From NCBI GenBank assembly GCA_016188005.1, contig JACPIQ010000068.1, positions 62,001-126,000 of the forward strand: 64,000 bases of DNA, written 5' to 3'. The DNA comes from Candidatus Rokuibacteriota bacterium. Lineage in GTDB: Bacteria > Methylomirabilota > Methylomirabilia > Rokubacteriales > CSP1-6. The position numbers and the translations under genes were made by a program. Of the stretch, positions 8,471-9,541 are shown in pieces. The stretch's first letter is position 1. Each line of letters starts with the position of its first letter. The notes below the pieces were generated by a model. The model worked only from the letters and a program-made list of their open reading frames with translations. It made no database searches and was not told the DNA's origin.

Positions 8471-9517
8471 TCACCCGGGCAGCGGGCGGTAGTACGCCTT
8501 CCCCGCCCCCACCCACTCCTGCAGCATGGCGCGGAACCCCGGCCCCATGGGATCGATGCCGCGGATGGGCATCGTGCCGCGCCGGATCGTGAAGTTGTGC
8601 GGCGCCAGCTCGCCGGCCCGCACGAAGTGCCGCTCGGCCGCCTCGGCGCGCCCTCGCCCGACGAGCCAGCGGCCGAGACCGAACTCGGCCCGCGCCTGCT
8701 GGTCGTCCGGGCCCGGCATGGCCTGGAGCCGTCGGACGTCCCGCGCACCCATGACGGGCGCCTCGCCACGGACCCAGCCACGGAGCAGGCCCAGATGGCG
8801 GGCCGCCTCGATCCCGGTGATGTGACGAAAGGTGTCGCTGCCGAAGGTCACGTCGTTGGGCCGGACGATGCGCCCCGCCTCGTCGATCCAGACTCCCGTG
8901 GGGACATTCACCATGTTGTACAGGTCGGCGACGCGATGCTCCACGTCGATGAGCGACGGGTGCGTCGGCCGCGCCGCCTCGATCCAGGGCCGCGCGTCTT
9001 CCGGGCTCCGGTCCAGCGCGACGGAGATCACGACGAAGCCGTACCCGTGGAGCTCCTCGTACAGCGCCTGCCAGACCGGCAGGTCGAGCCGGCACCCTCA
9101 CCACGAGGCATACGCCACAAGGAAGACCTTGTCCCCGCGGTGCTCGGAGAGCGAGTGCGGGCGGCCGTGGAGGTCGGGCAGGCTGAACTCCGGGGCTTCG
9201 AGGGACGCCAGAGCGCCGGCCCGGTCGGCCGCGGAGGCGCCGAGATAGGCCGCCCGCTCCGGGAGCTCCAGCGCCAGCGGGCGGTCGAGGAGGCCCGCCA
9301 GCTGATCGAGCGCGATGCCCTCGGCCACGGCGCAGGCGGCCCCGGCGGGAAGCGGCACACAGAGCCCTTCCCGGCACAGGCCCTGCGACTCGAGCCGCCA
9401 GCCGAGGGCCTCGACGGCCTGCGGAGGGAGCCTGACGCCGCCAGCTCCGACCCAGGCTGGCACCACGACGGGCCGGCCGTCGTCGAGAAGCGTGAAGTCG
9501 CGCTCAGGCCCGCTCAC
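8471..9517 (-). CDS. Selenocysteine-containing thioredoxin-like (AhpC/ResA-type) protein
   Basis: 348 codons in one continuous frame if the TGA at 9098-9100 is read as selenocysteine 140. Residues 1-139 end FLVAYASW; then U-G-C-R-LDLPVWQALYEEL follows in the same frame, exactly where a thioredoxin fold has its redox motif. Downstream are VVISVALDRSPEDARPW and the cis-Pro segment NVPTGVWID (about 200), then a helical, TPR-like C-terminus. A hairpin with a GGUCU loop begins 14 nt after the TGA (see SECIS). It is probably a peroxiredoxin or thiol reductase; two more cysteines (C48, C53) lie near the N-terminus. GTG start. Without read-through both halves would be non-functional. Confidence 0.8.
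9067..9100 (-). promoter_or_regulatory. Bacterial SECIS element after in-frame UGA
   Basis: On the mRNA the UGA (9100-9098) is followed after 14 nt by the stem CCUGCC / GGCAGG (9083-9078 and 9072-9067) closing a GGUCU loop (9077-9073). The loop thus begins 20 nt after the UGA. From memory, the E. coli fdhF SECIS also has a GGUCU-type apical loop about 18 nt after the UGA. SelB recognition is inferred. Confidence 0.75.
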
Positions 9518-9541
9518 GCTCGCCGCCTCGCGGCGGTGACG

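Follow-up and report, generated by a model that had tools for sequence, protein, structure and literature searches.

A TGA-encoded selenocysteine in a ResA-like thioredoxin-fold protein of Candidatus Rokuibacteriota

Results

A single 348-residue frame reads through an in-frame TGA

A gene on the minus strand of a 64,000-nucleotide stretch of Candidatus Rokuibacteriota DNA (hereafter the window, meaning the whole stretch that was analysed) encodes a protein in which, on comparative sequence evidence, an in-frame TGA specifies selenocysteine (Sec). The gene runs from 9517 to 8471 and forms one frame of 348 residues if the TGA is read as Sec, an extent that is supported by comparison with homologues. 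It opens with a GTG start codon (9517-9515), 5 nt behind a possible ribosome-binding site recognized by eye (GAGGCGG, 9523-9529), and closes with a terminal TGA stop (8473-8471). The joined translation around the internal TGA reads ...VFLVAYASW-U-GCRLDLPVWQALYEE..., placing Sec140 at 9100-9098 within the motif YASW-U-GC-R. This translation bears out the original prediction, which had described two frames in the same phase, parted by a TGA at W-U-G-C-R and joining into 348 residues with U at position 140. The coordinates given at that stage were right; the strand had been left unstated and is minus. The observation of a TGA-encoded selenocysteine gene is confirmed, and we regard this reading as solid.

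Long accidental frames are common in a GC-rich window such as this one. Counting both strands, the window contains 134 in-frame TGAs flanked by open stretches of 80 or more and 60 or more codons, and the Sec140 TGA alone among these has a 5-bp stem with an nGUnU loop 20-26 nt downstream.

The TGA is uniform among homologues

Relatives were collected by scanning 84,980 prokaryotic genomes once, with search peptides that exclude the Sec site. The scan returned 80 relatives, of which 79 cover the site; all 79 have TGA there and none has a Cys codon. The codon context is also constant, with TGG before the TGA and GGN-TGY-(CGN/AGR) after it. These homologues are spread over Rokubacteria, Myxococcota, Actinomycetota, Pseudomonadota, Chloroflexota, Binatota and one Planctomycetia MAG. 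Residues that are invariant in the 80 aligned sequences include W139, U140, G141, C142, R143, D145, W149, D191, H194 and Y200, as well as N204, P206, W210, R219, P220 and W248. Conserved residues lie on both flanks of the TGA, and the conserved protein continues past it.

When 95 genomes of the same phylum, a set that overlaps with the one from the larger scan, were searched with a profile, 47 gave matches, and every match that covers the site has TGA; none of the three matches that have no TGA extends to it. No form with Cys at residue 140 was found among these 95 genomes, nor among 299 Pseudomonadota genomes, where the two matches obtained both carry TGA. As to whether homologues align a Cys at position 140, no close homologue was found that does so, and Cys is at the aligned position only in distant ResA-like paralogues (for example, WCPPC). 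The missing close Cys homologue does not refute the Sec reading, as the uniform TGA and the covarying SECIS element described below outweigh what a Sec/Cys pair would add.

One cultivated relative, Reyranella aquatilis KCTC 52223, has both a homologue and SelB. In a set of Reyranella-type genomes (homologues L069, L073, L077, L078, L083, L084, L086, L092, L093 and L097), the gene is flanked on one side by a thiamine-diphosphate-enzyme-like gene and on the other by isoquinoline 1-oxidoreductase subunit-like genes, with a CoxE-like gene upstream (names assigned by eye). Three homologues (L039, L102 and L106) come from records titled as Klebsiella pneumoniae MAGs; these titles look wrong, as L039 and L106 group with uncultured proteobacteria on the tree.

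A covarying SECIS hairpin follows the TGA

Downstream of the TGA lies a hairpin (9067-9083, minus strand) of sequence CCUGCC-GGUCU-GGCAGG, in which a perfect 6-bp stem (9083-9078/9072-9067) carries the loop GGUCU (9077-9073) with a covarying G9077-C9074 pair. The loop starts 20 nt past the TGA, so that stem, loop and spacing fall exactly where they had been predicted. The locus has what would be looked for in a bacterial selenoprotein gene, namely a conserved TGA and a downstream hairpin with a G in its apical loop.

Across 62 sequences, 98.8% of cells are paired when seven pairs are considered (the 6-bp stem and the loop-closing pair), as compared to 91.1% after shuffling and 35-63% when the partners are slid, and cells in which both sides have changed number 26 versus 6.2 in the control. 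The signal is strongest at synonymous sites: codons 147 and 148 have wobble bases that form G/C, C/G or A/T in 79 of the 80 sequences. Wobble complementarity of Pro-Val codon pairs is seen in 62/63 cases at the site, as against 35/107 at other places in these genes (Fisher p 1e-19, uncorrected for relatedness). On the protein tree, the loop-closing pair must have switched type 11 times or more, such that kinship alone is insufficient to explain the covariation, and pairs 18-34 and 19-33 also occur as C-G, U-G and U-A. Single-sequence folding energy at the hairpin is not significant (z -1.9 to -0.4) and was left out of the support. Rfam has no matching family at the site or anywhere in the window, and the SECIS assignment thus rests on covariation.

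A plain ORF list cuts the gene in two, as had been foreseen for standard gene calling, giving separate ORFs at 9098-9517 (139 aa) and, from an internal GTG, at 8471-9031 (186 aa). Such a division is what one would obtain if the TGA were a true stop, produced by a nonsense mutation, pseudogene formation or a sequencing error, and the two halves were remnants or two proteins. However, the same TGA recurs in 79 homologues from many phyla, whose protein sequence is conserved on either side of it, compensatory synonymous changes maintain the hairpin, and the second fragment would be left without the active site. We consider a true stop to be exceedingly improbable and read the codon as Sec.

The host genome carries the selenocysteine machinery

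The host genome is a 5.37 Mb draft that is 98% complete. It had been predicted to hold selA, selB, selC and selD elsewhere, and all four were found. A tRNA-Sec scores 69 bits (C4:43285-43378), above the gathering score; SelA matches TIGR00474 with 577 bits (L009:70-1488), and its gene lies directly upstream of selB on the same contig; SelB scores 364 bits; and SelD scores 348 bits (L107, C86:102037-102972, minus strand). SelD is itself a selenoprotein, with an in-frame TGA at AACAG-U-ASKMGPGD.

These findings also bear on whether the TGA could be read as Trp or Gly under a reassigned code. The frame is indeed open through the TGA, as such a code would have it, but TGA also terminates the same gene, tRNA-Sec, SelA, SelB and SelD are all present in the genome, ResA paralogues have their catalytic Cys at the aligned position (for example, WCPPC), and the hairpin follows 1 of the 134 candidate window TGAs, that of Sec140. 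We give a reassigned code virtually no credence, and continue with selenocysteine.

Among 57 genomes of the same GTDB family, SelB is found in 51, tRNA-Sec in 46 and the Sec140 gene in 46, making the gene a common one in its family. Four of these genomes (G021, G023, G026 and G042) have the TGA gene, but neither SelB nor tRNA-Sec was detected in them at the thresholds applied. Gaps in the drafts may explain these four cases, given that selC, selA and selB form one locus. Co-occurrence of gene and SelB in this family was considered as support and rejected as uninformative, since the gene is still present in 4 of the 6 genomes that gave no SelB match.

Other loci of the host genome also drew our attention. 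A Prx-like gene (L020, C8:346600-346941, minus strand) contains an in-frame TGA in FWTTW-U-PHC and adjoins a Cys paralogue (L019, WCPPC); it is likely to be a second selenoprotein, with L020 and L019 forming a Sec/Cys paralogue pair. A TlpA-like gene (L023, C81:31816-32160, plus strand) contains an in-frame TGA in FWASW-U-PFC with a hairpin, GAGGG-AGUUA-CCCUC, downstream and is likely to be a third. A partial SelB-like match adjoins a tRNA (L002/L010, C2:63253-64621); judging by score, this is probably an ordinary EF-Tu beside a tRNA gene and not a second SelB.

The protein is predicted to be a three-part thioredoxin-fold enzyme

Pfam assigns residues 107-217 to AhpC-TSA (PF00578, 1.1e-15), with a further match to Redoxin (6e-10) and weak matches to TPR. 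An AlphaFold2 model based on 54 homologues (pLDDT 94, pTM 0.92) is predicted to have a thioredoxin-like fold of the ResA/TlpA kind, and sequence and fold searches of the PDB both rank ResA and DsbE-like proteins highest, with the matches lying in the thioredoxin domain. The Pfam, model and structural matches agree with the AhpC/ResA-type fold and the helical tail that had been proposed for the protein, and we take this fold to be a well-supported prediction.

The model divides into three parts. Residues 1-92 (9242-9517) form an N-terminal beta-rich domain that is modeled with confidence (pLDDT 89.7) and for which a Foldseek search of the PDB gave no match (best E 0.34). It contains a CX4C motif, made up of Cys48 (9374-9376) and Cys53 (9359-9361), each of which is conserved in 37/37 sequences of one alignment and in 74/80 of another. 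The thioredoxin-like (AhpC-TSA/ResA) domain follows over approximately residues 93-235 (8813-9241; Foldseek match to ResA 2f9s, E 3e-11) and contains Cys142 (9092-9094), the presumed resolving Cys of the U-G-C motif, which is conserved in 80/80 sequences. Approximately residues 236-348 (8474-8812) form a TPR-like helical tail, which is helical in the model and in about half of the members matches TPR weakly. Inspection by eye reveals no evident signal sequence, so the protein is probably cytoplasmic.

Discussion

A proposed role for Sec140

The best explanation of the data as a whole is very probably that of a SelB-dependent Sec140 in a ResA/TlpA-type oxidoreductase with a U-x-C redox cycle. 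The decoding of UGA follows from comparative sequence evidence; the catalytic cycle, substrate, reductant and thiol-disulfide oxidoreductase role are inferred from fold and motif. We propose that SelB with Sec-tRNASec would bind the hairpin, which starts 14 nt past UGA(140), such that Sec is inserted and termination is avoided. Sec140 occupies the position of the first Cys of WCxxC, with Cys142 as its presumed partner and Arg143 at the usual place of the second Cys. The Sec140 selenolate could then attack a substrate disulfide, sulfenic acid or peroxide, and Cys142 would be expected to resolve the resulting intermediate to give a selenosulfide. Re-reduction of this selenosulfide may be carried out by the N-terminal Cys48/Cys53 pair or by thioredoxin directly. 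The TPR-like tail probably binds a partner.

It is also possible, though on balance rather unlikely, that Sec decoding is correct and that the enzyme acts chiefly as a Prx-like thiol peroxidase and less as a thiol-disulfide oxidoreductase. Sec is frequent in peroxidases, the protein matches the Pfam AhpC-TSA and Redoxin models, and UGC proteins were called Prx-like in the Global Ocean Sampling paper (PMC2398784). On the other hand, the typical peroxiredoxin motif with its peroxidatic residue, PxxxTxxC (or U), is absent around residue 140, and Sec occupies the W-C-x-x-C position of ResA/TlpA. A conserved N-V-P-T loop resembles the cis-Pro loop of thioredoxin, and the structural matches are to ResA/DsbE. 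We therefore favor a thiol-disulfide oxidoreductase.

A more speculative idea, to which we give a somewhat lower chance still, is that in this Sec-only clade the U-x-C motif is recharged within the same chain by the CX4C of the N-terminal domain, which would make the protein a self-contained selenium redox relay. Gene neighborhood was rejected as a functional clue because gene order is kept among close Rokubacteria only, where it reads HpcH aldolase, NUDIX, selenoprotein gene, alpha/beta hydrolase, SDR. Outside close Rokubacteria the adjoining genes are unrelated, and no neighbor conserved across clades was found that would point to a substrate.

Many genomes probably carry a faulty annotation of the active-site portion of this widespread enzyme, as ORF calling splits the gene and the window protein scores under the one curated model found that would rescue it. 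Annotation that relies on this model (NF041054, below) would, we infer, still split the genes of the window's clade. The strict retention of Sec with no close Cys relative makes the protein a good case for asking why selenium stays unreplaced, and the cultivated, SelB-bearing Reyranella aquatilis KCTC 52223 makes the question of Sec retention testable. Of specialist interest are the Sec-only distribution, the U-x-C motif and the invariant CX4C in a domain that has no structural match.

Comparison with known systems

The window hairpin presumably resembles the E. coli fdhF SECIS in layout. Shared with fdhF-type elements are an in-frame hairpin soon after the UGA and a small loop with a conserved G and U, whereas here the loop-closing pair varies across homologues (G-C, C-G, A-U). 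The protein has the thioredoxin domain in common with ResA, TlpA and DsbE. Unlike the CxxC of ResA, its motif is U-x-C, with the partner Cys at +2 and not +3, so that the sequence departs from WCxxC. ResA is membrane-tethered; the window protein has no evident signal sequence and, in contrast to ResA, carries an extra N-terminal domain and a TPR-like tail.

Prx-like selenoproteins with a UGC motif entered the literature with the 2008 Global Ocean Sampling study (PMC2398784). A UGC-containing TlpA family appears in a table of a 2026 review, which also mentions 63 selenoproteins predicted in one Methylomirabilota MAG (PMC13188914). The window protein shares with these bacterial Prx-like/TlpA proteins the pfam00578/cd02966 thioredoxin-like domain, the UGC motif and the Sec-encoding TGA (PMC2398784; PMC13188914). 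The 2008 set had 855 Cys homologues (PMC2398784), whereas here no close Cys homologue was found. Our literature search returned no paper naming the NF041054 motif and none specifically on Rokubacteria selenoproteins.

A closely related curated family is NCBIfam NF041054 (WAxxUGC_long, "ResA-like WAxxUGC motif-containing protein"), which matches the window protein with E 3e-72 and 243.9 bits, below the curated cut-off of 300 bits; the best stretch covers residues 37-227 and a second lies in the tail. Both have the UGC motif with Sec in a ResA-like domain and the same architecture, but the window protein has YASW before U, not WASW, and belongs to a separate clade. On a tree of 78 sequences, a W-type clade of 36 is separated from the window's clade of 42 (100/100), the latter including other Rokubacteria, Myxococcota and Actinomycetota. 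When nine homologues were scored against NF041054, those of the window's clade reached 190-272 bits and those of the W-type clade 286-360; the two above 300 bits (L065 and L068) are both of the W-type and share the hairpin. The score of 244 bits against a cut-off of 300 thus marks a sister clade that NF041054 leaves unnamed. This kind of selenoprotein is already known (NF041054; PMC2398784; PMC13188914), and the window's clade, which scores below the curated threshold, belongs to it and is not a new system.
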